A program made the position numbers and the translations under genes. Shown piece by piece: positions 11,776 to 54,872 of a DNA stretch of 64,000 nucleotides. The DNA comes from Cymbomonas tetramitiformis (Eukaryota; Chlorophyta; Pyramimonadophyceae; Pyramimonadales; Pyramimonadaceae). The DNA lies in the NCBI GenBank assembly GCA_001247695.2, contig LGRX02024778.1:19921-83920 (forward strand), read 5' to 3'. The notes under the pieces were generated by a model. It did no database searches and was not told where the DNA came from. It saw only the letters and a list, made by a program, of their open reading frames with translations. Positions within the stretch are counted from its first letter, which is position 1, and each line of letters starts with the position of its first letter.

Positions 11776-12444
11776 ATTTCTCGAGGTCACTGCTCTTCCA
11801 GAGGCGAACAGATGGAATCCTTTAGGGGGGCAACTATAAACCCATCAAGGCTGTGGAAATAATCTGAAGCAGTTGTACACATTGATGTTCACACATAACC
11901 CTCTTAGAAGACCATGCAGTCGAACCGATGTAGTTTCAGGCAATTTTCTCCGCAGCTTTGAAAGTTCATCAAAATGTTTTTTATCTTCCCCGACAACCTC
12001 AAAGAAAAAAGCTCTCAAATTCGAACAATCGAACCCCTCTTTTTTGCCCTCGGCCGCGGCCTGTCCATGTCCCTTGCACTTTGGACTTTCCACCTCGCAT
12101 GCGATTTTTTCACGCCGTGTCACTCGACTAGACGAGAGACGCAGCGCAGACCTGCTGGCGCAGACGGCAGACCCGCCCCGCGCCGGCGCGGGCGGGGGAC
12201 GCCGTCGTGTGGAAAACCTGCATTGAGAAACAGAATCGAGAATGCAGATCAACAGAAGCGACCTCTAGCATATAAAGCACTTAGCCCTACAGTAGTCTTA
12301 CGATTTAGGGCTCTACACTAACGAGTCACAAAATTGAAAAAAATTGAAACGATAGGATACAAGTAGCCGGGTAGACAGAAGACTCTCGGCTACATATGAG
12401 CATACATACACCAATTCCGGTGCCAGATAAAAGTGAGGGAATCC
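11776..12444. promoter_or_regulatory. Divergent promoter region between two host genes
   Basis: The TMEM53-like gene leaves to the left and the CoA-binding gene to the right, with under 700 bp between the chosen starts. The region includes an open minus-strand Arg-rich stretch (12252-11845) that may be 5' exon sequence of the left gene. No clear TATA box was identified. Confidence 0.4.
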
Positions 12445-22075: not shown

Positions 22076-22140
22076 GGCGGCCCTTCTTGCCTGATTGCTT
22101 GATTTGCTGCCATGCATTGTACGTGCAATGCTTTGTGGTG

Positions 22141-23290
22141 ATCTTTGTGTGCTTGCACCGGCCGGGTTCCATTCACATATGGTACTTATGGTGCCGAAGC
22201 CGAGCAACCCTAAGGAGTTGCGCTTGGTTATCGACTACAGGTCGATAAATGAGATCACGGTCAAGGACAAGTACCCTCTTCCTGACGTACAAACCCTCCT
22301 CGATGACCTACAACAAGGAGCAACCGTCTTCTCCACTGCAGACGCCCTGTGGGGATTCTGGCAAGTTCCCATGGAACAGGAGGACATCGAGAAGACAGCC
22401 ATGACCACCCACTTTGGAGCTTATGAGTGGTTGGTCATGCCTATGGGACTGAGCAACTCACCGAGCACGTGGCAAAGAATGATGACGCAGTACCTCGGAC
22501 ACCTACCCTTCTGCAGAGTGTTCGTGGACGACATCATGATTTGCAGTGACACGCCTTCTACTCATGTCGGCCACGTACGTGCCGTACTAGCTGCCTGTCG
22601 CCAGCACAAAGTATACCTCAAGCGAAGCAAGTTGAAGTTGTGCATGCGCGAGCAGTACGCTTCCTTGGCCATGTGTGCAGTAAGGAAGGTTGTCGTCCCC
22701 AACGCGACAAAGTTGCCTCAGTTCGCGACTGGCCGGAGCTCGAGACTGTCACCCACGTGCGCCAATTCCTTGGAATGTGTGGCTTTTACCGGCGGTACAT
22801 CCAGTCCTTCGCTCACATTGCCCACCCTCTCACTCGCCTCACGAAGATGAGAGTGCCATGGACTTGGGGCAAGGAGGAGAAAGAAGCCTTCCAACGATTG
22901 AAGTCAGCATTGATTTCGGCACCAATCCTCGCCCTACCGGACCAGCGCTCAGCAGCCGATGGGTCTCGCCCATTTTGCGTGCAGACCGACGCCAGTGCGG
23001 TCGCACTAGGAGGCGTGTTGATGCAAGACCTGGGGCGAGGTCTTCAACCGCTGGCTTTCGAGAGCAGGCAATTCTCCTCGGCCGAGCAGAACTACCACGC
23101 TGGGGAGCGGGAGCTGTGCGCCATCCACCACTGCACCACAGTGACGTGGAGGCATTACCTTATATTCACCGACTTCAAACTCATGGGTGACCACAAACCC
23201 TTGCAGTGGCTCTTCGCACCGGCTCGGGAGCTGAGTCGACGCTAGGCACGCTGGTATGAGAACTTGGTGGAAGTGGGCGTGCACCAAATG
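22141..23290 (+). pseudogene. Ty3/gypsy-type reverse transcriptase and RNase H, broken
   Basis: RT motifs in order: LRLVIDYRSINEIT, PLPDVQTLLDDL, FSTADALWGFWQV, VMPMGLSNSPSTWQ and the catalytic FVDDIMI, then FLGMCGFYRRYI. A frame shift near 22660 moves the protein to the second frame. RNase H follows (FCVQTDASAVALGGVL, ..NYHAGERELCAI, TDFKLMGDHKPLQW). A TAG at 23243-23245 interrupts just before ARWYENL. The N-terminus is missing, because the first RT block starts abruptly at VLMVPKPSN. No DDE integrase or chromodomain is found downstream. Confidence 0.85.
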
Positions 23291-25566: not shown

Positions 25567-26299
25567 TGGCTCGGGGTTTATGTTGGATTAAGTTTTTGAC
25601 ATCTACTGGATTAAGTTTTGTTTGGGTAGATTTAGATTAAGTTCATGTGACACGATCGATCGAGAGGTCATCAGACCTGAGACAGGTCGTCATCGTCTCT
25701 TCGCCGGAAATTTCCGGCGAAATCACATCAACACATTGCATGCTGCCGAGCGGAGGGCAGCATGCATGCTGGGAAGGCAGGTTGCATGGTGCCGCATGGT
25801 GCCGAGAGCAGGTTGCATGCTTGCATGCTGGGGAATAGTTTTCAGAAGCATATGAAAAATATTCTATTGCTTCTAAAAACTACTTATTATATATCATAAA
25901 CCCTTTGCCTTGACATTTACCGCTGCACGCGACCGGCAAGCATCTTTGAAACTCGGAAGTTTCAAAGATGCGTTTGGTATTTTGGGTGCACCCTAAAATT
26001 ACAAAACAGCCGAGCGCTTCCCGTTTGTGCGGGATATTCACATTTATTCCACGGTATATTTCATATGAAATATACACATAAGCACGAAGGCATCGGCCAC
26101 GCATCTTTGAAACTAACGAGTTTCAAAGATGCGTTTTTGTCATTTGGGTGCGCATACCCAAATAACAAATCAGCCGAGCGCTTCCCGTTGGCGTGGGGTA
26201 TCCAACGCTTGAATGTTAAATATTCATTATAATATGAGTTAGCATGCGAGGTTGCAAAGGCATCGGGACAGAATCTACGAAACTGTCCTATGCCTTTGC

Positions 26300-26930
26300 C
26301 TTTGGGTTCGAACGTATCCAAACCCAAAGATGCCAAACAGCCGAGGGCTTCCCGTGCGTCCTAGCGCACGAAACTTGGCGCAAATACTGCCAAGAGATAT
26401 TTACCTAAGTTACTTGAAGCTCAAAGCTTCAAGTTACTTGTGCGCCCAACGCGCAATTTATTTCTAAGGCAGATGTTTTGGGTTTGGGTTCGAACGTGAC
26501 ACCCAAACCCAAAGATGCCAAACAGCCGAGGGCTTCCCGTGCGTCCTAGAGCGCGAAACTTGGCACAAATACTGCCAAGATACAAATCTTTAAGTTACCT
26601 GAAGCTCAAGGCTTCAAGTTACTTGTGCGCGAAACACGCAATTTATTTCCAAGGCAGATGTTTTGGGTTTGGGTTTGGGTTCGAACCCAAACCCAAAGAT
26701 GCCAAACAGCCGAGGGCTTCCCGTGCGTCATAGAGCGCGAAACTTGGCACAAATACTGCCAATATGCATATCCTTAAGTTACTTGAAGCTCAAAGCTTCA
26801 AGTTACTTGTACGCGAAACGCGCAATTTATTTCTAAGGCAGATGTTTTGGGTTTGGGTTTGGGTTCGAACCCAAACCCAAAGATGCCAAACAGCCGAGGG
26901 TTTCCCATGCGTGTGCATGTGTGTTAAACC
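26300..26930. repeat. Tandem array of ~185-bp units with telomere-like palindromes
   Basis: Three to four units start at GATGCCAAACAGCCGAGGGC (near 26330, 26511, 26697, 26881). Each ends in GGGTTTGGGTTCGAAC and its complement, a self-complementary block. The array forms the loop of the foldback element. Confidence 0.7.
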
Positions 26931-27383
26931 ATGTGAAATATTCCATGAAATAAATGTGAATATCCCGCACAAACGGGAAGCGCTCGGCCGTTTTGTAAAA
27001 TTAGGGTGCACCCAAAATACAAAACGCATCTTTGAAACTCGGAAGTTTCAAAGATGCTTGCCGGTCGCGTGCAGATGTAAAAAGGCAAGGCAAAGGGTTT
27101 ATGATATAGAAGACGTAGGAATAGTTTTCAGAAGCACTAGAATACTTTTCATATGCTTCTGAAAACTATTCCTACTGCCGCTAAATCTTATTACACCCTT
27201 TGCCTTTCCCTTTGCCTTTGACCTTCCGTTCGCAGTTTTACCATGTGTGCCTGACCTCGGAGCGGTGGCACCTCGGATCCGGCGAAATGACGATGACGAC
27301 CTGTCTCAGGTCTGATGACCTCTCGATCGATCGTGTCACATGAACTTAATCTAAATCTACCCCAGACAAAACTTAATCCAGTA

Positions 27384-29814: not shown

Positions 29815-29846
29815 CTAGCCCCTAGCCTGACCCTGCTTCCGTCTCG

Positions 29847-30016
29847 TGTCCGTGACATCCTAGCACTGTACTGTACAGTAGTACAGTACAGTAGTACAGT
29901 CATCGTTTCACTGTCTGGGTTTCCGAGAGCATAAAGCTTCGGCCAGACACAAGTTATATGATTATCAGTTTGTCTCCTAGCGAGCTTAGCCGGACAGCGT
30001 ATCTGTCTTCCTCGCA
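29847..30016 (+). repeat. 170-bp LTR of element B, copy 1
   Basis: TGTCCGTGACATCC...CTTCCTCGCA. It contains the tandem palindrome CTGTACAGTAGTACAGTACAG. A 170-bp second copy lies at 42505-42674 with only about two differences. Confidence 0.85.
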
Positions 30017-30028: not shown

Positions 30029-30453
30029 CACCGGCTTTCCGGTGATTCTGATGATGGCACAGCGCCTTGCTGTTGCCATGTTCGGCTAAGTAGGACGTAG
30101 GAGGGGTTGAGCGCCCACTTGGGCGGTGGTGATTTACTCTTACGGTATGGCCTTTTGACTTGGCAGTGATGGCGGCACGCATTGTGCTCGCCTTCGCTGC
30201 ACAGGAGATCAGTTGGTGACGGGTTGTTTTTATTTTACGGAAGCATCGTCGCAGCGAGGGTTGATCTGTTTCGTGCGCCGCTGGCTCCGGCGAGGTCGTT
30301 CCACACGTAACTGATTTTGGCCGCTCTCATGGTTTCGCTTACGACCTGTGAATTTTGATCTGTCAGCTGAGACTTCTGCAAGCTATCTGGCCGCTGTAAG
30401 CGTTCTTCAACCATCTCCCTGTTTAGCTCAACCTCCTCCCCTGTCTCTTCATC

Positions 30454-32469
30454 ATGGTTACCACAGCAAATAGATCGACGCGGTCTCGCGTCCGTAGATT
30501 AGAAACGATTTTTGATGACGTCGGTGCGCAGCACGCTGCGACTCCTCACACGCCGCAGCTGCCAGCTCCGACCACCGCAGCTGCGAGAGAAATTTTGGAC
30601 AAGTGCAAGCAGTTGGCTCGTGACAGTTTCGACAGGAAGGTTGCCAAAACCGTTGCCACTAAGATTCTAGGCGACAAATCGCAGCGCTTTGCAGGGACAG
30701 AGGCGGACGCAGTGGACATTTTTTCACAATTGATGCATGAGTTGCGCGCACAGTTCGTGCTTCAGTCGTCGGCGTTTGCTCCCCTGTTTGACTTGACTGA
30801 CATGGCGGTTGAGGCTAGGCATGAGGCAAATGAGTTATTGCTCTCGGCTCTGACATTTCTGGCTCGCCCTGGCTCACCTGCCCGTGACTGGCTTGAGGCC
30901 TCTGGGTCCGACGTTCCTGGAGATGGCAAGCGCGCTGCCCTTGAGGTGGTGCGCATGCTCCAGGAACGTTCGGAACCCTTTGACTCTTTTGAGTTGCTGC
31001 TGGCGGTCCGCATCCCCAGCAGCAAAGATCCTGACCGTGGCATCCGCGAGTTCAATGGCCTGTTGAGGGACGTTCAGCGTTCCCACAACTTGCCAGAGGA
31101 CGCGGTGAAGCGGCAGTTTCTGAAGGCTCTCGGCGATTCATGGCTATACCGTGATTTGGCTAACTCTCTGGCTCGGGCTGACCAGCGGCAGGGCGTGTCT
31201 CTCCTGACTATTCAGGCTCGTGTGCGGGAGCAGTTCCGCCACGGCCTGAAAGTCTCTGACGCCCCTGTCTCTGCTCTGTCATTCGGCGATGGCGCGTCTG
31301 ACCTGGCTGCGGCGTTGTCCAGTCTGCAGAAGCAGCTGGAGCGCATGCAACAGGACATTCGTGACCTGAAGCGGCAGAAGCGGGAAGGGCCTCCGCCTGC
31401 GGGCAAGCACCTTACCCGCTCTGCTGCTAAGCATCATCGTGCTGGTGTTAAGCCACTTGGCACCGCTCCTCCTGTCTCATTTGACAAGAAGAGTGGTGCC
31501 TTCGTGCCCCACTGCCAGAATGCGGTGTGTGCCAAAAGTGGTTTGAAGCACTGGCATGCTGAATGCCCCAACGGCGGTCTTCACTCTGCCCACTATTGTA
31601 GTGCGGTTGAAGACTACGAGACTGACTGCTTGGCTGTTCGTTTCCAGCGTTTCTATGACGCGGGAGATGAGCACGCCTTCGAGTCGCTCTGCACGATGGA
31701 GGGTCGCCCAGAGGTGTGCGAGCTGTCGGCGCATTCTTTTGTGACGGCTGAGCCCACGTCTCTGCGGCACTTTCAGGATGCGGCGGCTTCCGCTCAGGAT
31801 GCGGCAGCTGACGAGGACGGCGTGGCTCACTTTCCTCTAGCCACATTCCACTCGGGTGCACGGGGTTCGATTCCGCCACCGCCTGCGGTTCGGGATCCCT
31901 CTGCACTCGTGGCTGGTGGTGTGCCTACGGCTCATGACCCACCAGTGGCTGTCCCTGGCTCTCTCGGCTTGCCTGGTTCTGTCCCATCGCTCCAGCTTGG
32001 CGACTCTGCACCGGCTCCGCTGTTTGCTGGCATGACGATTGAGGCTTCTGACATTGGCTCTGAAATCTCTGACAACGACCAAGGCTCTGACAATGACTCT
32101 GACGGCGGGCGGCAAGTGGCTTTTGACTCCTTCGGCACTCTTGAGCATGACTCTGACAGGGGGGCATCGCCACTAGCAGCTCCGATGTACCGTCCGCGGG
32201 CGCCGCCGAGTTTTCTCCGGTGTGCGTTAATGTCCTCGATGCTCTGTTGTTCTCTACTGGCCAGTGCTACGGCATCTCTGGTTGCCGTGGGCGGTGGTGA
32301 CAGGGGCCTGGTTGAGCCCGGAGTCACCGTCCATCGGTCTACTGGGGGTATCTTTTTGCTTCGGATCCGTCACTTGGCTCTCTGGACATCCGTGATTGGC
32401 CGCCTGACGATCGAGTTCTTTTATCTCTTTCTTCAATGTTCAAACCGCCATGGGAATCTACTTGTCTGA
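30454..32469 (+). CDS. Gag-like protein of LTR element B
   Basis: A 671-codon frame from ATG 30454, the longest retroelement frame in the window without a stop. Basic start (NRSTRSRVRRLETIFDD), an alpha-helical capsid-like part (RDSFDRKVAKTVATKILGDK; FNGLLRDVQRSHNLPEDAVK), a coiled coil (LQKQLERMQQDIRDLKRQK) and a variant zinc knuckle CX4CX6HX4C (CQNAVCAKSGLKHWHAEC) follow in Gag order. Next come FQRFYDAGDEHAFESLC, an acidic Asp/Ser stretch, and a hydrophobic segment (SSMLCCSLLASATASLVAV). A second frame ending at 32630 overlaps the end. No enzymes are encoded. The frame being open suggests recent activity or selection on Gag. Confidence 0.75.
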   Translation: MVTTANRSTRSRVRRLETIFDDVGAQHAATPHTPQLPAPTTAAAREILDKCKQLARDSFDRKVAKTVATKILGDKSQRFAGTEADAVDIFSQLMHELRAQFVLQSSAFAPLFDLTDMAVEARHEANELLLSALTFLARPGSPARDWLEASGSDVPGDGKRAALEVVRMLQERSEPFDSFELLLAVRIPSSKDPDRGIREFNGLLRDVQRSHNLPEDAVKRQFLKALGDSWLYRDLANSLARADQRQGVSLLTIQARVREQFRHGLKVSDAPVSALSFGDGASDLAAALSSLQKQLERMQQDIRDLKRQKREGPPPAGKHLTRSAAKHHRAGVKPLGTAPPVSFDKKSGAFVPHCQNAVCAKSGLKHWHAECPNGGLHSAHYCSAVEDYETDCLAVRFQRFYDAGDEHAFESLCTMEGRPEVCELSAHSFVTAEPTSLRHFQDAAASAQDAAADEDGVAHFPLATFHSGARGSIPPPPAVRDPSALVAGGVPTAHDPPVAVPGSLGLPGSVPSLQLGDSAPAPLFAGMTIEASDIGSEISDNDQGSDNDSDGGRQVAFDSFGTLEHDSDRGASPLAAPMYRPRAPPSFLRCALMSSMLCCSLLASATASLVAVGGGDRGLVEPGVTVHRSTGGIFLLRIRHLALWTSVIGRLTIEFFYLFLQCSNRHGNLLV

Positions 32470-32685: not shown

Positions 32686-33342
32686 CCGGGTCAAGACCCC
32701 GGCACCCAGAACAGACTATTGGGAATAAATGAATCTCGATCGTCGTCTAAAAACCTTCATTTTGACACAATTTTCGTCGTCTAAAAGTTATTGCCACGTC
32801 ATCTGAAAAGCGCCACGTAAGCGACACGTAAGCGACACGTAAGTCGTCCCGCAATTTTTATTACAAAATATTACTGGAATTATTTATTTGTGCATGATAC
32901 TTTCGTACTCGGCGAGTCCCGGTAGATTTTTTTGTTGCATTTTTGTTCATATGCGTGCATATCATTTACAAGTATGCAAATATGGGTACATCCATGTGCA
33001 ATTTAGGCCAACATGCACGGTACACGTTTATGAATGTGCGTATATAGGTGCTTCAATTCCCGTAAAATAAGTTGCAACTGAGATGGGTACTAGCATATGA
33101 TACACAAATCTATACCATCATACAAATTTATTCAAAATACACCAAATATTTGTCTATGATGTCTTCTAGGCAAGAGATTTCGATCATTTCACCGTGCTAA
33201 GGCTACTATATTGCTGATACATTGGAATCTATATCTTCAATCCACAATTATTTGCGGTACTTGTAGGTTTTATTTCCCTCGATAGCGAGGTAACGTTGAC
33301 GGCAATGTTGACGCTCTATCGGAAAACATAAATGGCAGAGCT
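32686..33342. other. Junction between gag element B and the minus-strand cluster
   Basis: Contains the tandem repeat GCGACACGTAA (about 32815-32845). From about 32985 it is a ~190-bp segment that recurs at 34110-34300 as 3'-flanking DNA of the paralogous gene pair. No coding sequence. Confidence 0.5.
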
Positions 33343-33747
33343 TTATTGGTCAAGGCAATTGCATCGCACGCAATATAGGTCGATTTCCTCTTCTCGTTGA
33401 TGCCGCGGAATAATAAGCGCCCAAGTGACGTCGATTGGAATGACCAGTGTCCTTGGGGTAACCCATTCGTTCCCTATTGGGCTCTGGTCGGGATAAAGTT
33501 CCGGTTCTTGAAGGTCAAAAAACATGTATTTCCGAATTCTCCAGGTGTAGCGCCACCAAACGATCCCTAAGTCCTGTCGGACATGTCTGTCCTCGTAGGG
33601 GATGTTTAAGAACTTACATATCATCCAGCTGTCTACATTGCATTGAGGACATCGCATGTGGACCATTCCATGTGTATTGATAGCGTCTGCAGTGGCTTCA
33701 TCGCGATCGCGTGTCCCATAAACTCCGAATCGTAGAATTGAAGGCAT
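33343..33747 (-). CDS. Small Cys-rich protein, paralogue 1 of pair A
   Basis: 134 codons from the ATG at 33747. The chosen ATG begins MPSILRFGVYGTRD. The protein has a CPQC pair, then WRYTWRIRKYMFFDLQEPELY, DQ, PRTLVIPIDV and ends CVRCNCLDQ. The neighbour at 34413-34787 shows the same order (CRVC, RFIRKTRETWYFQLLDEHVY, DEQ, RTPVTMPVPTD, CNC), so the two are tandem duplicates. Cys pairs at both ends suggest one zinc site. The family was not recognised. Upstream at about 34040 lies TTTTGGTCCAATCA, a CCAAT-type promoter block shared with the paralogue. Confidence 0.6.
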   Translation of the reverse strand: MPSILRFGVYGTRDRDEATADAINTHGMVHMRCPQCNVDSWMICKFLNIPYEDRHVRQDLGIVWWRYTWRIRKYMFFDLQEPELYPDQSPIGNEWVTPRTLVIPIDVTWALIIPRHQREEEIDLYCVRCNCLDQ

Positions 33748-34412
33748 AACGTGGCCACGATATTGCAGGATTTTATACCTGTAGATAACAATGCTTGCAA
33801 GGTGATTAGCAGTTGAAGCGAGCGTCGCCCATAGCAAAAGTCGAAAATATAAATTGTGAGGATAAATGTGGAGCTATAATACCTGCAGATGGCAATGCTT
33901 TCAAGGTAAGTAGCAGATGTTTGAAGGTATGATTGAAGGTGCGTATGTTAGAAGAAACAGGGGGAAATGAATCTTCAAGGGTCGGGCAAGAGCTTTTGTA
34001 CCTGGTCGTGAGTGGACCGCGGGTCGTGCAAGAGTAGTGTACTTTTGGTCCAATCAGCTTCGTATATCTCGCACATGCGGGATCGCTTAGTCGCCGATTC
34101 CCGTATGCAAATGTGGGCACATCCATGTGCAATTTAGGTCAGCATGCACGGTACACGTTTATGGATGTGCATATTCGGATGCTTAAATTCCCAGAAAACA
34201 AGTTGCAACTGAGATGGGTACTAGCATATGATACACAAATCTATATCATCATACAAATTTAATCTATATACACCAAATAATTGTCTAGGATGTCTAGGAG
34301 CACATAAATAAGGGTAAGTGTTGGTGTAGCTAGCAGAATAATACATCAGTGTAAGTATCTAATGTGAACTTGCAAATATAAAATAAAGACTGTACACAAG
34401 CGTATATGTTTC

Positions 34413-34787
34413 CTAACGGCAGTTGCACCACTTTCCATCATCATCATTCTCGGGAGAGGCACCGGAGTTCAACTCGGGAATATAGTCCGTGGGAACCGGC
34501 ATTGTCACTGGGGTTCTTATGTCAGCGACGCCTTGCTCGTCGGAGTATACATGCTCATCCAACAGTTGAAAATACCATGTTTCCCGCGTTTTGCGGATAA
34601 ACCTCCACTTCGCGTAAGCGGGGTCATGTCTAGTCATGTCATATCTAGGATGCAGCGCAGGATCGACGAACAGTTCCTCGCGAATTAGAAACAAATTCCA
34701 GGATTGGCACACACGACATTTTTCGGATTCTATGTGCAGTCGTTCAAGCTGAACAGGTAAGTCTGCAGGGAAATGAGGCGCATTCAT
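34413..34787 (-). CDS. Small Cys-rich protein, paralogue 2 of pair A
   Basis: 124 codons from ATG 34787 (MNAPHFPADLPVQLERLH). CRVC near residue 25 and a C-terminal WCNCR enclose an aromatic, basic centre (WRFIRKTRETWYFQLL). Homologous to 33343-33747. The duplicated block also includes about 170 bp upstream of each start (33880-34050 and 34820-35010) and about 190 bp downstream. No known domain recognised. The spacing and common orientation with the cluster suggest it moves or evolved with the methyltransferase gene. Confidence 0.6.
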   Translation of the reverse strand: MNAPHFPADLPVQLERLHIESEKCRVCQSWNLFLIREELFVDPALHPRYDMTRHDPAYAKWRFIRKTRETWYFQLLDEHVYSDEQGVADIRTPVTMPVPTDYIPELNSGASPENDDDGKWCNCR

Positions 34788-35301
34788 ATTGGAGGTAGCG
34801 TGTTATGTAATCGCAAGCGCCACACTATAATACCTGCAGATGGCGATGCTTTCAAGGTAAGCAGCAGATGTTTGAAGGTATGGTTGAAGGTGCGTATGTT
34901 AGAAGAAACAGGGGAAATGAATCTTCAAGGGTCGGGCAAGAGCTTTTGTACCTGGTCGTGAGTGGACCGCGGGTCGTGCAAGAGTAGTGTACTTTTGGTC
35001 CAATCAAATTCGTATATCTCGCACATGCGCCGATTTTTTAATCAAAGACAAAAACACAACCGAGGCAGAAAACCCCATACACAGGCACATCAGCATATCG
35101 GCAAGAAACACAAGCCATTGACGAATGAACATTATACACTTCTACCACATTGTTAACATATGTTTAAGTATACTATTCTTATCGAAAAGTAGTCGAAAAT
35201 CTAACCCTCGGGAGGTTGCAATCCTAAGTCTTACTCGAAATCAAAGTGGAATCAAGATAACATTCTGACTCGTAGCCGCCGTGGTTTCGTTGACGGTAAC
35301 G

Positions 35302-35556
35302 TTACGGCTGAACCTGTCGGAACTTGAACCGAAAGGCAAGGTCGTTTCGAAACACACATCGAAAATACCCCAACGTGCATTTGTTGCCTTCCGCATTCCT
35401 GCACATATAACATTCATTGTAGTTCCTCCACAACATTCGAACAGTCATACCATGAGGAAGATAGTCAAAATTCCTCATTCTCATTCTGGGGGCAGTAGGG
35501 CATGTTGCATACATGCCAAGAACATAGGCAACAATACATTCTCGCTTGGATGGCAT
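35302..35556 (-). CDS. Small protein, paralogue 1 of pair B
   Basis: 84 residues from the ATG at 35556 (MPSKRECIVAYVLGMY), then LPHGMTVRMLWRNYNECYMC and CTLGYF. The gene at 35871-36104 has the same skeleton (MPSKR, LPPGMT, LW.NYN..C, CSL..F). The N-terminal basic patch and Cys residues might bind nucleic acid or zinc; this is a guess. A CCAAT box (GGCCAATCAAATG) lies about 110 bp upstream at 35668. Function unknown. Confidence 0.55.
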   Translation of the reverse strand: MPSKRECIVAYVLGMYATCPTAPRMRMRNFDYLPHGMTVRMLWRNYNECYMCRNAEGNKCTLGYFRCVFRNDLAFRFKFRQVQP

Positions 35557-35870
35557 GGTTGGATGAGGTGGCAGGTGAAGAAAGAAAAGTGCCAAGCTGA
35601 AAAGTGAGTTGTGAGGACAAGGTAGGTGCTTAAATATCTCAGTAGTGTGGCCGTCGTGATTTCAGTTGGCCAATCAAATGACCTCTTTCAGGTGGGTCGG
35701 ATCGAAGGCCCGCATGTCACAAACATAGCATGTCACAACATTGGAAATGTGAAACGTCGATAACAATTTCATTCAAAATATGTTCGAATACAATTATATT
35801 TAACGGTGTTCCAACGATAAGTCAATTTGCTCAATGACAAAGCTATATGCTGTCGCTATATAGCATCAAT

Positions 35871-36104
35871 TCATCCGACGGAACTTGACCCAAGAGCTAA
35901 GCTCCTCTCTGAACACACGACAAAAAGGCTGAGTGAGCATTCCATGCCTTCGCCGTCGACGCATTGTGTATTGTAGTTCTGCCACAACGTTTGGATAGTC
36001 ATACCCGGCGGAAGAAGAACTGTATTGCTGCATGGGTAAGACTCCCCGTGATTTTTGGCAAACTGGTCGATGTATGTGAAAACAGACTGCCGCTTGGATG
36101 GCAT
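35871..36104 (-). CDS. Small protein, paralogue 2 of pair B
   Basis: 77 residues from the ATG at 36104 (MPSKRQSVFTYIDQFAKNHG). LPPGMTIQTLWQNYN and MECSLSLF align with the neighbour at 35302-35556. The conserved start MPSKR in both supports the chosen ATG over upstream near-cognate codons. No domain recognised. Confidence 0.55.
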   Translation of the reverse strand: MPSKRQSVFTYIDQFAKNHGESYPCSNTVLLPPGMTIQTLWQNYNTQCVDGEGMECSLSLFVVCSERSLALGSSSVG

Positions 36105-36345
36105 GACTATGGTAGAAGTAGAAGCAGGTGCGTCGCTGACGGGAAAAGGGGGCAAATGAGTAGTTTAGGCAAGAAATAGAGCTTATGATCTTGGAAAGTC
36201 TTGGACCTGCCGAATTATTAGCCTATCAGATACCCGGTACTAGTCCGCTCGGATCGAAGGACCTACAAGTACATATCTACTATTATTTTGCGACGAAGGC
36301 GTGTCTGCGAAGTCCATGATTATCCTGTCTGCATTGCCAATCATT

Positions 36346-37112
36346 CTATGAAAGCAACCTCTGAAGTATGCTTTTCGGGCACCTTAACTTGCAGATGCAC
36401 ATCATCAACCGACCAAACGGAGTGAGACGGTAAAATGGATAAGAATATACAAAATCTGGAGCGTGTAAGTTGGAGTGTACAAACCCCATTCTTGCTGTAT
36501 ACTTCTGAAAGTGAGGGGTTTTGAAAATTGTGGCGTCCCGCATTTCAATGCGCACCGAGGTAACGATTTGCCCGCCAGATATCTGCTGTCTCACGACGGG
36601 GCGACCCTTTGGCCGACCTGCAAAACATGCGACGCATTGGATTTCCCAAAAGGCTAGAAACTGCAGGTAGTCCCCATAGGACCAAGCACTCATGGAATTC
36701 CGTTCTGCTGGATGCCGCGTATCCCCCGGGTACTTAAACAAAGGTCGGCATCTTGCATATGGCTGTCCTAATATATGACCCCTTGCAAAACGACAGAAAA
36801 ACTTATGCCGTGCGTAATCAGCTTTCCGACAAGTTTGGGGGCTTTGCAGTAATTCGCAAGATAGCAGCCGGTACACGTTGCAAGTTGTGAACGATCTTGA
36901 AGCCCGCAGTGCAGGCAAACTGGGTACAAAAATTTCATCCGTAAAGGCAGATTATCATGCACGCTTGCGTCATACATTTGAAATTGTATCTTATGTTCCT
37001 CTTCCATCGATTTCTTGAGCGCTAGTTCTGAGGGCGAGGACTCTTCAGGGAACCATAGTAACCAAACGTTTTTATCTGGATTTTCCTTCCGCAAAGTAGC
37101 AAGTATTGTCAT
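36346..37112 (-). pseudogene. MYND zinc-finger protein with a broken frame
   Basis: ATG 37112 (MTILATLRKENPDKNVWLLW). A MYND finger starts CLHCGLQDRSQLATCTGC..NYC in the first frame and is completed by TCRKADYARHKFFC in the -1 frame. The break falls at a run of five C on the minus strand (plus 36837-36841). Read across it, all zinc ligands of C-C-C-C-C-C-H-C are present. The C-terminal about 150 residues (to the stop at 36346) are unrecognised. One missing base, an assembly error or frameshifting would each explain it. MYND fingers bind Pro-rich peptides in transcription-linked proteins. Confidence 0.6.
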
Positions 37113-37493
37113 TGGAATTGATTGAACTGAGATGGATGGGAATAAAGGTGCGTCGATGAAGTGTCGAGCGGGGAAATGATTTTGGAAGAGAGGGGAATAG
37201 GTTTCATACCTCAATGGTCGTCGTGGTACCGCTCAACTTCATTTAACCAATATAATCAGGCAATCACAATGAAAGCGGAGGCATGTCACCCGCCCCATAA
37301 ATGACATCGGTTCCACAACAACATATGTCGCCAATACTTTTGGAGAATATACTTTATTTACAATTGTCATATCAAGATATACCATACGTGTTTCATCAGC
37401 GTACTTCTGCACTGAGACAATAGGTTATTAAGACTATCAACAAATATTGACCTAGGTGCTGGCACCATGTCCTAGCAGGGAAATCATCATTGC

Positions 37494-40400
37494 CTAGCGA
37501 GCTTTACTTTTCTTGTTCTGATCGGATCCCGGATTTCCGCCTGGTGCCACTTTCCGCTTAGGTATAGGCCCCGCCTTCTTGGCGGCCTCAGCCTTCTGTT
37601 TCTTGGCGGCCTTGTCGGCCTCGGCCTTCTGTTTCTTGGCGGCATCCTCCTGTTTCTTGGCGGCCTTGACGGCCTCGGCCTGCTGCCGCTTGGCGGACTT
37701 GTCGGCCTCGGCGGCCTCGGCCTGCTGTTTCTTGGCGGCCTTGGCGGCCTCGGCCTCCTGCTGCTTGGCGGTCTTGGCGGCCTCGGCGGCCTCGGCCTGC
37801 TGTTTCTTGGCGGCCTTGGCGGCCTCGGCCTCCTGCTGCTTGGCGGTCTTGGCGGCCTCGGCGGCCTCGGCCTGCTGTTTCTTGGCGGCCTTGGCGGCCT
37901 CGGCCTCCTGCTGCTTGGCGGCCTTGGCGGCCTCGGCCTCCTGCTGCTTGGCGGCCTTTTCCGTTTCCCTCATTTCGACCGCCGTCTTCTTCTCCCGCTC
38001 CTTCTCGACTTTCTCTTGCTCTTTACGATGTGCCTCTCTCTGCCTTTTCACCTCGTCGTATTCCTGCTTGCTCAACACTTCGTCGGCCAAAGAAAAAAAT
38101 CCATCAGGAAACCTAATGCGCTCTTTCGCTGAGTCGACCATACCTTGCTCCCTGCATCCAAGACACCAGCACTTGTTAAAACCGATATACAAAGTATTTT
38201 TCAAAAAATGGATGTAGACATGAATGCTTACCTATCGAAAGCAACGGAACCCAATCCCAACATGTTGGCGGCTACCGAAGTGGTCCCCGAACCGCAGCAC
38301 GCATCCAAGATGAAGTGATAATCGTGATGAAGAGGTAACACCCCCTCGTACGCAGATTTCCCCCTCGCTTCCCCCTCTAACTCAGGACCTCGCATATGGA
38401 TATTGATGAGGTCGTGGATGAGCTTCAGCGGCTTCTGGTGTTTGTTAATTCTTTTACCCTCGGAGTTAATGGCGAATTTCGACGAGTGTACAGGGGCATA
38501 TTCCCAGGTGTTGGTTCGGCAAGAAGCCACGAACTGCTTATCGACGACATCACTATCCGCATTCTCCTCCTCACCGAGAACTCTAATCAAGTTCTTCATC
38601 CAGGGAAGCCTTTTATGCACGGCTGGGTGGGTTTCGTCTGCGAGAGCAATCAGCGCTGCTTAGTCAGATTGCCCATGCTTAGACGCCAAAAGGCAATCAC
38701 AGAATTGTACGTAACTTAACATCTACGGACCTGTAGGTGTTGCTTCCTTGACGTAGTAACACAAGACAAAGCACTCCATACGGTTGGCGTAGTTCCGTGG
38801 CGCAACGCCGGATTCCAAGGGCATCATGTTCGATCTGCTCAAAGGTTTCACCCAGAACATCTTTTCGGCGTTCCCGTGGCAAAACTGCTTGGCGGCTTCG
38901 AAGAACTCGTGGTGTTGTTGGAAGCCACAGAAACATCCCCCTACCCAATCATCACACGTGGTCAAATTGTTGAAGTTGTGTAGGAATTGCTTGAACTCTC
39001 CTGCTAAGAGAGGTTTCGGGAACCATTTCTTGTTCGAGTCCAGAGCATACTCGCAATCCATAATGAAACCGGTGAATGGAAGCCTGGGAAGAGTCGTGAA
39101 GGATTCAGGTGATGCGGGCTCCAGCAGAAAGTCCTTCTTGAAAACCAACTGCGGAATCTTGTGAGTGTAGAAGTAGTCATCATCGTCGACTTGCTGGCCC
39201 TCAGGAACGTTTGACAATATTCGATAACTCACACCTGTGTGCAATGTAAACGATTAGTAATTACATAGCTACGGTGCACAAATGGAATATGAAACCGAGA
39301 TACGCACCTGGAAGATCCTTTAGGATGTTTTCCGCAGTCGATGCTGTCGTCGACCCGATTTTCAGCAACATCCTGCTCTCGATATTATTCCAGTAGAACT
39401 TTATATCCTTCGGAATGTTTTTGATCAGTTTCTCTATCTTCTCCTCGTGCCGCTGTTTTTCTTTTGCAGGCCGTTGTTCAAATTGAAATTTCCGGTTCTC
39501 CTGCTCGTTCTTGCAGGAGACCTTCGGGGGCACCACTCCCGCCTGGTACAGTTGTAAACAAACCCCGTTGTTAATTGAACGCGCAAGCCGATATGGAAAA
39601 AATCAGATATCGTGAAGGACGACCAGAGGGCGCAACTTAGGTAAATTACCTTCAGTAATGTACGTATTTCTCTCTCATCCCCAGCCCCTGGGAAAACTTC
39701 GCAAAACTTCCCCCAGTCTTGTTCTGGGTTGGGAAACGTAAAGGTGTCAAGCTTCTTTTGCAGCGCAATGATTTCTGCATCCAGCTCACCGTACGTCATC
39801 TTACGAGCCCAGAACTTCGACTCGGGAGCACCGGGATCCACGACAGCATCCACTGGTTTCCTTTCCTTAGGTATGGGATACCCATCTTCATCTAGGTAAG
39901 GAATGAAGCAGGCTGCACCTATGTCGTATATGTCGTTTTCGAACCCTCCCGGTTGTGTTTGCAGAAAGTTCTGCATAGAATGCCGGTTTTTCTTGAGAAA
40001 GCTCAGTTGCCGGTAGGCCGGTGTCGATTCCAAGGAGGTTGTTATGTTGAATCGTTTATGAGCCTCTGAGGCAAGCAGCATTAGGTTCTCTCGAACATTG
40101 TTGAGAGTCTTGATCTCGGCGATACGGTTGATCATATCTTTGACCGTGTACTTCCGTTCGATGACGGCTTCGTCGACGAGGTCAGTGATCTCACGTAAGT
40201 GTCCTTCGGTCAAGGGGGCCCAGCTTTCATAGAACCCCTTCGGCAGATCATGGTAGACGATCGGCTTTCCGGCTGTGGGGTCCCATTTAGGTTGCTTGGT
40301 CGTTGGTGCGTTGAGGTCAGTTGTGCCGGTCGACATACCGATTGAACGTTTACGCTTATTGCGAGATGACCCAACCGTGGCCAAGGTCGTCTCCGTGGCG

Positions 40401-41710
40401 TCTTCATTGTCCGGGTCAACTCCCTCTAGCAAACCTTCATTGTGGGCCTTCATCACTGAAAGCGGAAACATGAAATACCAAATCGTCAGTTAGCTACTGC
40501 AAAAACACCTAAGAGCAAATAAGAATAATGTCGGGACGGAATTCACAAAAAATGGCAGCACCTCTCTGAAGTTGTTTGAACAACTGGTACGATTGCACCG
40601 AGATAGCCCAAGCAGCCCAATGCGTGTTCTTCTTGTCTGCATTCAGCTTCTGGTGATTGAACACCTGCGTCTTCAGCGCCGCTTCGAATTCGGGATTCAA
40701 GTTCTGCTTCGGCGGCACCCGACGGTATTTCAAGTTCTCAAAACTCTTCATTCCAGCGTCTCTCTCGTTGGGTTCGGCCATCAGTTTCTCCACGTGTTTT
40801 CGCATGCCAAGAATGATCTCCGTCATGTTGCGGTGCTTCATGTAGGCGTCAATGTTGTTCTGCTCATTCCCAAGCTGCGTGCGCAAACGAATTGCACGGA
40901 TCATGACTATAGCTGAGAAGCTGGCCGACCGTAAACCTCCCTAAACACTTGAGTATGTAAGCCCTGAGAAGCACCTGAGAAAACTGGCATGAGTGAGACA
41001 CACCTGATTCATTTCGATGGCGCTCAAGTTCATGAAGAGACGGCATTCGATGAACTGAAACGCTTCCGTTCGATTTTCATGGTTTGCGTGCTTTGCTTCA
41101 TCCGCCTTGACGCAGCGACGCTTTGCCTCCAGCAAATGCTGATGTCCAAAGCAGGTGAATCTGTAGAATAACAAAGAAAGTGTAAGTTGGAACACATATG
41201 CATGCATCCATCAACGCAATGGGTCTTACCTGTATCTGCCTTTCCCGATGTCCGCCCAAACGAATGCCTCTGGGTTGGTGCTTGTTGCATCTTTACGATT
41301 CTCTATGACGGAAATCAGGGCTGGAGATCCCGAACCGGTGTGTGGGTTCCAGTACATCATTTCGGCAATAGCCTGGGCGTGATGTTCGTCCAGTGGTCGA
41401 GGGCGATGCGCTCCTTCTGCATCATCGATGTACTGGATGGGGATTCTCCACGATGTCGCACATGGATTATTAGTGTCGACCAACTTATGCATGTCATCGA
41501 TTTCCCTGATGGCCCACATAAGCAACGTATACTTGGTTTTAGTAATGCACATACACCATCAAAAAAAGCAATGGTCGTATAAGTAAATCTCAGGAGGGAA
41601 GATGCATACTTGCGAATGGCAGCCTGCTTTTTTTGCTCATCTGCCTCGGTTTCATCGGCGGTCTTCGGAGTCTTTGAAGGGGACACAATCTCCTCATCAC
41701 CCTGCTCCAT
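37494..41710 (-). CDS. ParB-like domain fused to beta-class DNA methyltransferase
   Basis: Nine coding exons: 41710-41610, 41505-41230, 41160-41004, 40874-40562, 40455-39650, 39542-39308, 39234-38731, 38637-38232, 38151-37494. All introns are GT-AG, all phases agree, and the total of 3456 nt gives 1151 residues without a stop. Residues ~35-180 look like ParB/sulfiredoxin: RPRPLDEHHAQAIAEMM, then RFTCFGHQHLLEAKRR (the GHxHxxEA box) and ECRLFMNLSA. Residues ~283-630 are unassigned, helical. The methyltransferase lies in beta-class order: motif IV position FIMDCEYAL (~689), FWVKP, then HQKPLKLIHDLI and the SAM motif LDACCGSGTTSVAA (~907-920). The tail (~950-1151) is a Lys/Ala/Glu coiled coil ending in basic, NLS-like residues. 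Such fusions are known from phages; an intron-rich one is unusual. Confidence 0.85.
37560..37980 (-). repeat. Coding minisatellite in the methyltransferase tail
   Basis: Repeated GCGGCCTTGGCGGCCTCGG-type units encode AEAAKAAKQQ(E/Q) blocks, with a longer period of about 60 bp in the middle that is repeated three times (37725-37900). The period conserves frame, so the coiled-coil length could vary between alleles. Confidence 0.7.
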
Positions 41711-42369
41711 GATGAATGCAGGAATTGGCCGCTGCGGAGTTCCAGCTGCAGGAGATACAAGGCCCGCTGATGGGAGAGGGCTTGCCGCTGATGGCCCTGG
41801 AGCAGGGCTTGCCCCTGATGGCCCTGCACCTGCAGGGTTTGCCCCTGATGGCCCTGCACCTGCAGGGCTTGCCCCTGATGGCCCTGCACCTGCAGGGCTT
41901 GCCCCTGATGGCCCTGCACCTGCAGGGTTGCCCCTGATGGCTCTGCACGTGCAGGGCTTGCCTCGCAGGAACCTGAAGGGCTTATTCCAGAGAGTCTTCG
42001 AGATTTACGAGTGAGAGGTGTAGTTTCAATTGAAGGAGGTGTAGCCGTTTTTGTATATGGTAGTTTACGACCCGTATCGTCTCCACCAACTGCAGGTTGC
42101 GTTGGCACCTCAGCTTCAGCTTCAGCTTCAACCTCAGCTTCAGATGGAGGCCCGTCACTATCGAAACCTTCTCACAGCACAAAAGCAAATCAATTCTCAG
42201 TATTTGAATACATATATCATTTTTGTGACCTAAGACGGAGAGCGAAGGAGAAAGGGAGATAGAGAGGGAGAGATGTTTTATATCGGCTCACCGGCATCGC
42301 CTTCAGGGTTGGCAACTTGTTGCGTTGGAACCTCAACATCAGATGGAGGCCCGTCACTATCGAAACCTT
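41711..42369 (-). other. Upstream exons of the ParB-methyltransferase gene, frame broken
   Basis: Exon 42369-42292 (GFDSDGPPSDVEVPTQQV) splices in phase 1 to 42170-41610, which starts with the same GFDSDGPPS and adds EAEVEAEAEAE and RKSRRLSG. It then runs through five 36-bp units encoding PAGAGPSGAS. The first unit lacks one base (GCAACCC against GCAAGCCC in the others), so this N-terminal part is out of frame with the body. Translation from the ATG at 41710 avoids the break. Confidence 0.6.
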
Positions 42370-42504
42370 CTCACAGCACAAAAGCAAATCAATTCTCAGT
42401 ATTTGAATACATATATCATTTTTGTGACCTAAGACGGAGAGCGAAGGAGAAAGGGAGATAGAGAGGGAGAGATGTTTTATATCGGCTCACCGGCATCGCC
42501 TTCG
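42100..42504 (-). repeat. Tandem 200-bp exon-intron duplication
   Basis: Exon end plus intron (GAAGGCGATGCCG then GTGAGCCGATA...) is present at about 42272-42470 and again at 42472-42504, where the next exon copy is cut off by the LTR. The intron sequence (TTCTCAGTATTTGAATACAT) is identical between copies, so the duplication is young. Confidence 0.75.
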
Positions 42505-42674
42505 TGTCCGTGACATCCTAGCACTGTACTGTACAGTAGTACAGTACAGTAGTACAGTCATCGTTTCACCGTCTGGGTTTCCGAGAGCATAAAGCTTCGG
42601 CCAGACACAAGTTATAGGATTATCAGTTTGTCTCCTAGCGAGCTTAGCCGGACAGCGTATCTGTCTTCCTCGCA
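42505..42674 (+). repeat. 170-bp LTR of element B, copy 2
   Basis: Same ends and length as 29847-30016. It truncates an exon copy of the ParB-methyltransferase gene on its left. The flanks CCTT(C) and CCTT(G) hint at a 4-bp duplication but the host sequence does not continue on the right. No primer site follows, so it is a 3' or solo LTR. Confidence 0.8.
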
Positions 42675-49419: not shown

Positions 49420-51354
49420 GTCCGACTTCACAGAAACTGCTCGAGCAGTTACGGGCCTTGCTGCTCGCTGAAGTAAAGGCATGTCGTCATACGAGTCCGA
49501 CTCACTCTTCTCGGGCGATTCTTGAAATAGGCAGCGGCCATTGTTGACAGAACGTGTCCTGGCCTTCCGTTGAGGAGGGGAAAAGGTGGGAGACGCTGTC
49601 GTAGGGGGAGAACCTCGTGGTCGTTTAGGATCACCTGCTTCCGCCTGCCCAATTTTGCGAGTCTTGACACTGTCTTGGACAGGGGAGGAAGGAGGGGACG
49701 ATGGGTATACACGCTTCGTGCCAGCGGCAGCATCAGCGCGCATGCCGGCACCTCTCCATTTGCCTCGACCTTTCCCTGCACCTGCTTCAGCAACTGCAGC
49801 TTGACTGTTGGGGCCAGTTGATCTCCCCCCACGTCCTTTGCCTCGACCTTTCCTTGCACCTGCTTGAAGCTGCGACTTATTTGTCGGGGGGCCGGTTGAT
49901 CCCCACGTTCTTTGCCTCGACCTTTCCTGCACCTGCTTCCTTAGCTGCAGCTTGTTGCCGGGGCCAATTGATCTCCCGCCCCATATCCTTCGCCTCGACC
50001 GTTCCACACACGCCGACAAGCTGCAGCTTGACTGTCGGGGCCAGTTGTTCTCCCCCCACGTCCCTTGCCTCGACCTTCATCTCCGTTGTCGTCGGAAACC
50101 GGTCTCGCGCTTCCTGCATTTGAACGCTGACCGCGACGCCCCTTTTCCTGATGTTCCTTGCGCGCTGCGGCGGTCGCATTGAACAAACGTGTGGCCAACT
50201 CTGCAGCCAGCCCCGCACCGTCGAGCCCCATATGCTGCAACACCGCCTTAAGTTCGCCCTTATTGTACCTGAATAATAAGGAACATAAGGAACGCTTTGG
50301 TCAGTCAATGGGCAGCGTGCTTGATGGCGGTTCATATCATGTACTAATTAAAAGAAGTGACTATTGTAGAACTCACCAGAAAGAAATATCTTCAACTCGA
50401 CGTGCTTCTTGCTCACATCTTTTCGTTATTTTGGGAATGTCCACTGGTAGATCCTTGACCATCACATTTCTGCCGTCGGCAATGGTCTCCAACTCTGGTT
50501 GAGGTTCAGTTGTTGCGGGTCGGACGCCTCGGTCGTGTTCTGGTGCCAAGCGTTGCTCAGCAGCAACTTCAAGTCCAAGGGTTGCTGCTGATCAAACTTC
50601 GGGCCCTTCCAGGTGTCGTAGTCGGAAGCCTTCTGTGGTAAAGGGAAATACCCACATAGATGGTCTTGTTGCTCATGAGAGATACGGTCGACACCATGAT
50701 CACATAGCCGCTGAAACGCATTCAGGGTGTCTGCCTCCTCCTTCGCTTTCAGCGGCTGCACTTCCTGCAAGGGTGGAGAGCTGTCAATGTCGGGATAGCT
50801 GTTCATTACTTCCAGACCTTTGGTCAAGTCCTCGTCTACGCCTTTGGGAAGACACGGCTTAATATGGTCCCCCCTTTGTACTTCATGCGAACTACGCCAC
50901 GCTCGTCCTTTTGGAATTCCACGTAATGCACGTCGCGCACCATACCTCCATATCCCGTCAGGCCCCAGTTCATATGCGGCTTCAACCACTTTTTGAAGTC
51001 CAGCTGCTGACCCTGAACTTGTGCCAGCTTCAAGAACTTATTTACCGGCCACGATATAAGCCAGCTGATATAGTCTTCGAGTAGGATGAGCCATCGACCT
51101 GCTTTTGTAGCATCCTTACCGAATATGTACATCTTCATCAAACCGAACCAGCCATCAACATCGTTGTGGGTGTGCCCAACCATGAGGCGATGCAACACGA
51201 GTTTGTGGTAGATGCCATAATGAACCAGCAGGGCGCAAAAGCCGAACGTGTAGCGATTCCAGTTTTCAGAGCCTCCGTCAACTTGAAGATGCAACGTCTT
51301 CCTGAAGAACCGTTTGCCAGTATGACCCAAAGCCAGGAGCATATCAAGTTCACG
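49420..51354 (-). pseudogene. DUF7869-like transposase-fold gene with SAP domain, degraded
   Basis: First exon from 51354 (acceptor TTTCTAG): LHLQVDGGSENWNRYTF, then HRLMVGHTHNDVDGWFG, the hallmark D..SEN and GHTHxDxD blocks of the DUF7869 family, an RNase H-like transposase-type fold. A one-base break at a G6 run (plus 50869-50874) and another near 50570 follow. The frame then reads LPVDIPKITKRCEQEARRVE and splices (donor ~50377, acceptor 50269) to GELK..LQHMGLDGAGLAAELATRLF, a SAP DNA-binding motif. A tail of repeated GRGKGRGGR(T/S)TGP and a basic, Ser-rich end stop at 49417-49419. The N-terminus before 51354 is missing. Acts presumably in the nucleus on DNA. Confidence 0.65.
49790..50075 (-). 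repeat. Coding tandem repeat of ~100 bp, four units
   Basis: Units start CCTCGACCTTTCC and contain GGGGCCAGTTGATCTCCCCC. They encode GRGKGRGGR-type AT-hook-like peptides but indels move successive units between frames. Confidence 0.65.
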
Positions 51355-53503: not shown

Positions 53504-54872
53504 TTAATCGAATGAGACCTTAGTGCCAGAGCCGCCACCGCCACCAGAAGAGTCTATGGACAAGCCCTTGCCTTTGCCTTTTCCTCCCTTGCCCTTACCC
53601 TTTCCCTTACCACCCTTTTCACCCTTACCCTTCCCTCCCTTGCCTCCCTTACCTTTGCCCCCCTTTTCGCCTTTTCCTCCCTTGCCACCGCCACCTCCAC
53701 CTCCACCACTAGAGTTCGCGTCCACCTTGAGCCACCGCCCATGTAGTTCCTCACCACTCTTTCCTCCAGCCTTTTGTGCACTTTCTGCATCTGCAAACTC
53801 GATGAATCCGAATCCTCGAATCTCCCCAGACTCTTGGTCGGTAGGAAGGCGAATGCTCCAGATCTCCCCACACTCACCGAACATTTCGGAAAGGCCAGCC
53901 TTGAGCTCCTCCTCCGGCTTCCACTTATCAAAGCCCCCGATCCATACGGTGCGAGCAGTACGGTCGGGGTCATCCCTGCCCTTGCCCGGAGTGGCCTCAC
54001 GAGGGGTAGCCAGCTCCACGTGAATGTTGCGACCGAGGAAGTCGGCGCCGCTGTACTCAACCGCAGCGTTAGCAGCCTCGGATGTTGCAAAGTCCACGTG
54101 GCCGAAACCGCGTGACTGACCATCACGATAGGCGATTCGCACTTCGGCCACCTCACCACACTCCTTGAAGAACTCGGAAATAGCATCCTGTTTCAACCCC
54201 AGAAAACTTGAGTCCTAATTTTTGCTCGACTGTATCCGTGAAAGTCAGGTTGGCAGCGATCAGAACGGCCTCAAAAGTGTCTGATATCGGAATCGCCCTC
54301 AGCTATAACCCGGAGGATGAAGGGCATCCTCCTGAGGTGATGAGACAAGACAGAGGCCGAGCTCCAACCAAATGGTTTGTGCTAGGTCTGCAGCAAAAGG
54401 GGCAGGTAAGAGGTGAGACACCAAGATGTAGTGAGGCTAAGGTTGTACCTCATCAGCTTGGAAAGAGAGGTTCTTGATGAATATGGTGCAGTTATCTGAG
54501 GAGGCAGGTTGTGCACTGCCGTCCTCAGCCTTTGACTTCTTGGGTGCGGGAGTTGATTCATCTTCCGCCTTTCGTTTCTTGCTTACGGGTGCTTCCTCCT
54601 GCGGGGCATTTTGCAGGAGTCTCAGTTTACAGTGCCAGCAACCTAGAAGGTGCACGGTACTTAGAGAGGAAGGGGACAAGCTTACGGGCGAGGAGACGGT
54701 GACTGCAGAAAAACTCCTAGGAGATAGCTACAAGTCTCTGAGTCATCACAATGCAAGCGGACGGGCTGAAACGGTAGTTCAGAAAAACAAGGGAGACGAA
54801 GATACAGGCCCCTGCCATGCCGCCCGTGATCACAAGCTCCGTACCATTTCCTCATCATCGTCGTCGTCGTCA

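Follow-up and report, generated by a model that had tools for sequence, protein, structure and literature searches.

The nearest precedents found, in the accessible parts of the literature, for the element described here are DNA transposons that carry genes for enzymes acting on DNA. Fungal transposons of the Zisupton, IS3EU, EnSpm, Plavaka and Helitron types encode TET/JBP proteins, that is, DNA-base-modifying enzymes proposed to help these elements escape silencing (Kojima 2025, PMC12730594, in the sections available). Mariner elements borne by viruses combine terminal inverted repeats (TIRs), a transposase and a methyltransferase, and are tied to algal viruses (Bao and Jurka 2013, PMC3627910, in the sections available). 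The element described here was found in a stretch of 64,000 nucleotides from the green alga Cymbomonas tetramitiformis (contig LGRX02024778.1; the whole stretch is called the window, and positions are counted from its first letter). The methyltransferase-like gene in the window, on the minus strand between 41710 and 37494, is a truncated copy of a transposon's own accessory gene and not a unique captured host enzyme. With a probability of about 0.8, it belongs to a giant, high-copy TIR transposon of this alga.

The algal element differs from both precedents. Compared with the TET/JBP transposons, it has an N4/N6 methyltransferase-type domain instead of a dioxygenase, a DUF7869 transposase-like gene, and a green alga as its host. 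The virus-borne Mariner elements are single-copy and viral, with methyltransferases of the Methyltransf_26 and C5 classes (PMC3627910, in the same sections), whereas the algal element has introns, is about 23 kb long and is present in high copy number in the host genome. In the available text of the Cymbomonas genome paper (PMC10675990), giant virus, Polinton-like and mirusvirus-like elements are reported, and 43.6% of the assembly remains in the class of unclassified repeats; a term search of its main text returned no 'methylase', 'ParB' or 'methyltransferase'. A literature search for DUF7869 found no paper naming it. Among the matches listed, no title or beginning of an abstract names this element or a eukaryotic ParB-methyltransferase gene, which is not proof of absence in print.

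Copies, borders and arms of the element

That the gene serves a mobile element as an accessory gene is suggested by the many near-identical copies of the large DNA transposon that carries it. A 429-nt probe across exon 8 found 437 candidate places in the genome (851.7 Mb in 25,745 contigs), and all 40 of the places scored were about 100% identical over the full probe. In seven of seven copies read with their flanks, the similarity to the window begins at position 32710 (AACAGACTATTGGG...) and the sequence outside is unrelated. The same left border is seen in nine of nine copies whose left side was read (these seven, the copy on contig C1129 and that of the window itself). The copies are 97.0-99.6% similar in long blocks, with internal deletions or duplications in C2539, C2467 and C1208. 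The similarity extends to 42503-42510 in the five of seven copies whose contigs are long enough; C2539 and C819 end earlier. The placement of the gene in mobile-element DNA, which the first-pass annotation of the window had proposed, is thus confirmed by the near-identical copies, the fixed border and the TIR. The features of the element outside the gene are:

32710..42510, no strand: left (3'-gene) portion of the large TIR DNA transposon, delimited by copy comparison; the window copy is cut at 42503-42510
32710..32723, plus: terminal inverted repeat AACAGACTATTGGG, left end; its exact 14-nt reverse complement lies at the other end of the C1129 copy
33346..33873, minus: small Cys-rich open reading frame (ORF) of the element with a paralogue near the right end (44% identity over 139 columns, expectation value (E) 1.75e-35, to the C1129 right-end ORF)
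34416..34802, minus: second small Cys-rich ORF, related to the same C1129 right-end ORF (34% identity, 79 columns, E 1.25e-7)
36771..37232, minus: small ORF with a MYND-finger-like Cys pattern, inside the shared element (Pfam zf-MYND, E 0.32, below cutoff)

The copy on C1129 is the one copy with both ends read. It occupies positions 13038-36310 of that contig, or 23,273 bp including a run of N of 2,303 bp. Its right end, CCCAATAGTCTGTT, repeats the left 14 bp exactly in inverted orientation (14/14), and the chance of a 14-mer match within 6 kb is 2e-5. A subterminal stretch of 12 nt also matches between the ends, at positions 83-94 from one of them and 91-102 from the other. In the right arm, the opposite strand codes for a protein with DUF7869 (PF25273, E 7.9e-50). 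We take this protein to resemble a DDE transposase from its conserved residues (LQLDN..., GHTHENIDQMF), a resemblance that is our assumption and not a label of the library. The right arm also carries small Cys-rich ORFs, one of which is paralogous to the left-arm ORF at 33346-33873.

Between the arms lies an array of 48-bp units, each with a perfect 24-nt palindrome, GCGACTCATCCGCGGATGAGTCGC. The sequence GANTC occurs 24 times in 527 nt of the array, against 41 times in the 12.3-kb left arm and 24 times in 8.7 kb of the right arm. The array is present on both sides of the C1129 gap, where its 48-bp repeats are about 80% alike and inverted. Contigs tend to break in it: six of the eight tested do so (C2913, C2467, C1586, C11187, C10427 and C10677), and C1208 and C1184 end earlier.

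The methyltransferase-like gene and its product

Nine exons bounded by GT..AG introns, on the minus strand between 41710 and 37494, join in phase up to a single terminal stop, the exon borders having been picked from alternative sites so that the phase held:

41610..41710, minus: exon with the annotated ATG; the frame is open further upstream, and this is not the true first exon
41230..41505, minus: exon 2, with the RPRPLDEHH stretch earlier called 'ParB-like'; junction as in P0001
41004..41160, minus: exon 3, FGHQHLLEA stretch
40562..40874, minus: exon 4 from the second acceptor, which P0001 also uses; from the first acceptor it would begin at 40940
39650..40455, minus: exon 5
39308..39542, minus: exon 6
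38731..39234, minus: exon 7, coding for the N-terminal half of the methyltransferase domain; DCEY replaces the DPPY-type motif IV
38232..38637, minus: exon 8, HQKP motif and motif I (LDACCGSGTT), which binds S-adenosylmethionine (SAM)
37494..38151, minus: exon 9, end of the methyltransferase domain, then an Ala/Lys/Glu coiled-coil tail; TAG at 37494-37496

If exon 4 starts at its second acceptor (40874), the product has 1151 amino acids and, with the stop, 1152 codons. Three protein searches found relatives among Cymbomonas proteins (P0001-P0003, P0006, P0007, P0012), short proteins from ENA/NCBI contigs (P0004, P0005, P0011) and one EukProt model (P0008). The junctions of P0001 (CYMTET_47180 of Cymbomonas tetramitiformis) are identical to those of the window model in exons 1-8, and the two proteins are 96% identical in local alignment, with about 12 substitutions apart from gene-model differences. 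At its 3' end the P0001 model departs from that of the window, being joined to another frame; in our judgement FDREQGMVDSAKERI, as in the window model, is the better match to how a methyltransferase domain ends. The DNA coding for the coiled-coil tail is a tandem repeat with periods of 33, 42 and 75 nt. The first-pass description of nine phase-matched exons with 1152 codons and a coiled-coil tail therefore stands, by the reading of the junctions, the agreement of P0001 over exons 1-8 and the tandem repeat that encodes the tail. In P0008 (EukProt gene3956), a different N-terminus is joined to the tail exon of the transposon gene, possibly as an annotation chimera.

The C-terminal half of the protein matches PF01555, with E 3.5e-6 and 27.6 bits against a cutoff of 26.7 for the whole protein and with E 1.2e-7 and 32.4 bits against the same curated cutoff for the domain as the only query. 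The domain also matches PHROG family 67 (phrog_67, 'DNA methyltransferase') with E 7e-13. Matches to phage genomes by tblastn are weak (E 6e-4 to 6e-2, in four of 50,697 records) and cover only the region from HQKP to motif I. Motif I, LDACCGSGTT, is of the FxGxGTT type and lies C-terminal to the catalytic site, after HQKPLKLI. The first proposal of a spliced eukaryotic gene whose product has a domain like the beta-class DNA methyltransferases thus holds, and the motif order ending in LDACCGSGTT is borne out by PF01555 and phrog_67, although its catalytic motif reads DCEY.

The catalytic motif IV of beta-class N4/N6 methyltransferases normally reads [DNS]PP[YFW], and DPPY is invariant in the six of six phage proteins that were aligned. 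The window protein lacks this canonical form. The site, located by position since the alignment to the hidden Markov model begins after it, reads DCEY in the window protein and in all seven relatives that cover it (P0001-P0005, P0011 and P0012), down to 43% identity. The gene model of P0002 is without motif I. Because DCEY replaces [DNS]PP[YFW], catalysis by this protein appears doubtful, or its chemistry may be altered. Scans of IMG/VR with two alignments gave no relative; their 69 and 97 pattern matches yielded none that was confirmed.

The N-terminal part had been called ParB-type from two short motifs picked by eye; the searches made gave no sequence or profile match to ParB. Residues 1-301 have no match in Pfam at E 10 and none in PHROGs, and their one match in NCBIfam is unrelated (E 0.1). 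A 220-residue N-terminal piece matches neither a Protein Data Bank sequence (phmmer, E 10) nor a phage sequence (tblastn, E 10). Nor did hhalign support ParB when run against 78 aligned proteins, taken from 80 IMG/VR loci with a relation to phage ParB-methyltransferases; this comparison is insensitive, since it missed the protein's own methyltransferase domain too (hmmsearch score -1.4; hhalign probability 0.2). With nothing from Pfam, PHROGs, NCBIfam, phmmer, tblastn or hhalign, the ParB identity was set aside as unsupported. An AlphaFold model of P0001, made with seven sequences, has a predicted local distance difference test score of 43, too low for a fold search; its strand-strand-helix at FVWADIGKGRYRFTCFGHQHLLEAKRRC is compatible with ParB and is not evidence for it.

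Among known systems, phage fusions of the ParB_N-N6_N4_Mtase type, such as that of Streptococcus phage phi1207.3, also come close. These proteins share with the algal one a C-terminal PF01555 domain and the same order of motifs (HPTMKP, then motif I). They differ in having an intact DPPY, a length of about 410 amino acids and no introns, and ParB_N passes the Pfam cutoff in them (27.4 against 26.3 bits), whereas it is undetected in the algal protein.

Truncation, neutral evolution and neighbouring sequences

The window copy ends at 42503-42510, where it abuts an LTR-like repeat (resembling a long terminal repeat), and five other copies run on past this point. The features upstream of the annotated ATG are:

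41777..41962, minus: 30-nt coding tandem repeat (GPSGASPAGA), in which one unit of 29 nt causes a frameshift in the window copy
42130..42503, minus: duplicated 199-bp exon/intron unit in the 5' part of the gene; other copies have further, more diverged units
42502..42674, no strand: 173-nt LTR-like repeat that belongs to another element and adjoins the truncated end; a 99% identical copy lies at 29844-30016, and its LTR nature is inferred

Beyond 42510 the copy on C1586 has further 5' exons of the gene, which can be read directly in its frames. They encode MSSSSEEGADSVEG..., SMLVIHGMM...FALVVADKQ and DVVVIDTTPIF and have no Pfam match; matched by eye, they are similar to the N-terminal end of the paralogue P0002 (MLVIFGS...DFALVVADQK; VVVDITPIF). 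Because such exons exist in C1586 and resemble P0002, the ATG at 41710 is most likely internal and not the true start. The 30-nt repeat is open in three of seven copies (C2913, C2539 and C1184) and contains the 29-nt unit in four (the window, C2467, C1586 and C1208); what sets this unit apart is the length of a C homopolymer, and it might stem from a sequencing error. The window copy is probably non-functional, since it has lost the 5' exons and the right half of the element and has a frameshift a short way upstream of the ATG. The two corresponding first-pass claims, that the frame is intact and that translation starts at 41710, fail on the 5' truncation, on the 29-nt unit and on an ORF that runs on upstream of the ATG.

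The openness of the frame had also been taken as an argument for selection. The comparison of 15 copies over 37965-40150 gave 9 synonymous and 37 nonsynonymous differences (at 384 and 1449 sites, respectively), so that the ratio of nonsynonymous to synonymous differences per site (pN/pS) is about 1.1, and there is one premature stop. Variable sites number 45 of 1833 in exons and 4 of 353 in introns. A first count, on seven copies from exon 2 to the start of exon 9, had given 1 synonymous and 21 nonsynonymous differences; C819, whose contig ends in the region, was left out of that count, and the repeat-encoded tail was left out of both. The diversifying selection suggested by 1 against 21 was rejected, since the set of 15 copies (9 against 37) is close to neutral. 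The copies evolve about neutrally after insertion, and their open frame reflects youth and not selection at the level of the copy, because pN/pS is about 1.1. The motifs that the gene has in common with the divergent paralogues P0002 and P0012, and nothing else, hint at a longer-term constraint.

The 173-nt repeat, present at 29844-30016 and 42502-42674, was considered as a pair of terminal repeats of the element and ruled out, since the copies share the 32710 border and diverge past 42510. Its copy at 29844-30016 stands shortly upstream of an ORF of 680 amino acids (30427-32469), gag-like by eye and with no Pfam match. Elsewhere in the window, a retroelement is represented at 22095-23245 by its reverse transcriptase and RNase H domains (PF00078, 5e-29; PF17919, 4.7e-27). 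Two probable host genes lie on the minus strand, one for a DUF829 protein (11089-11844, E 4.6e-30) and one for an RNA-recognition-motif protein (53507-54214, PF00076, 7.3e-26). Repeat-rich ORFs at 49420-50300, also on the minus strand, have a weak SAP-domain match (E 0.026, below cutoff). A tandem array of 184-bp units occupies 25624-27362, between inverted arms of 152 and 85 nt that are 91-98% complementary, and tandem copies about 90% identical to it occur near the copy on C1184.

Alternative readings and the possible role of the protein

Several points weigh against a single transposon with the gene in its left arm. Only 40 of the 437 candidate places were scored. Only C1129 links the methyltransferase side to the right arm, and it does so across the 2.3-kb run of N; the DUF7869 gene is likewise seen between the TIRs in this one copy, across the scaffold gap. 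No target-site duplication is visible around the C1129 element, whose ends join over the gap. Owing to the gap and to the lack of a visible duplication, the halves might derive from two different copies. The window copy lacks the right arm, and C9274 and C7494, where read beyond the gene, match no right part. On these grounds (the gap and the missing target-site duplication above all) it might be argued that the assembler joined two unrelated repeats, a methyltransferase-bearing element and a separate DUF7869 transposon. This is unlikely in view of the perfect 14-bp TIR and the shared subterminal match at the outer ends, given the chance of such a 14-mer quoted above, of the related, inverted 48-bp repeats on both sides of the gap, and of the paralogous ORFs in both arms.

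It is quite improbable that the element is a degraded endogenous virus, either Polinton-like (of the PLVA/PLVB type, 19.5-29.5 kb with a DDE transposase) or mirusvirus-like (CHeCME). The ORFs scanned, which are part of those outside the gap, contain no major capsid protein, packaging ATPase or DNA polymerase, and the TIR is short, at 14 bp. The similar size of the element speaks for a viral origin, as does the abundance of such elements in this genome, some with DDE-type transposases, and the presence of introns in some transcripts of PLVA/PLVB regions (PMC10675990, in the sections available). The original proposal, in which the alga took up a ParB-methyltransferase fusion of phage or bacterial origin and selection has maintained it, can draw on the resemblance of the methyltransferase domain to phrog_67 and on the order of the N-terminal part and the methyltransferase, which is that of the phage ParB-methyltransferases. 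It is now largely refuted, and hardly credible, in the face of 40 of 40 scored places (of 437 candidates) that are near-identical inside an element with a fixed border and a TIR, and of a pN/pS of about 1.1 with one stop among 15 copies. A ParB signal is absent from every search made, IMG/VR holds no relative, and the phage matches are confined to the HQKP-motif I region of four records.

In the element as assembled on C1129, the leftward arm carries the multi-exon methyltransferase-like gene with small Cys-rich ORFs, and the rightward arm the DUF7869 gene with more such ORFs. In a single giant transposon of this kind, the DUF7869 protein would cut and paste the element via its TIRs. The methyltransferase-like protein, which keeps a SAM-binding motif and has DCEY in place of [DNS]PP[YFW], could be a DNA-binding helper, SAM-dependent or pseudo-enzymatic, acting on the element's own DNA in end protection, expression or resistance to silencing. 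Such a helper role is put forward tentatively. The self-marking or silencing-escape function first suggested may still apply, as a possibility weakened by the non-canonical DCEY. Very unlikely is a putative DNA-marking or partition-like module of the element's own, in which a protein combining a methyltransferase-like domain with a divergent region resembling ParB would bind, and perhaps N6-methylate, the array of 24-nt palindromes. If true, this module would control divergent promoters or keep the element unsilenced, and would amount to a eukaryotic transposon's own reinvention of a parS-like or CcrM-like system.

Transposon-encoded modifiers of chromatin or DNA are few in the literature found, namely TET/JBP, SET and rare methyltransferases. 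The element of Cymbomonas is an additional, testable case of a transposon with a possible role in marking or shielding its own DNA. A further lesson is that what appears from one window to be a unique 'captured enzyme' may belong to a set of dozens, and probably hundreds, of copies, and that the open frame of such a copy need not mean selection by the host.

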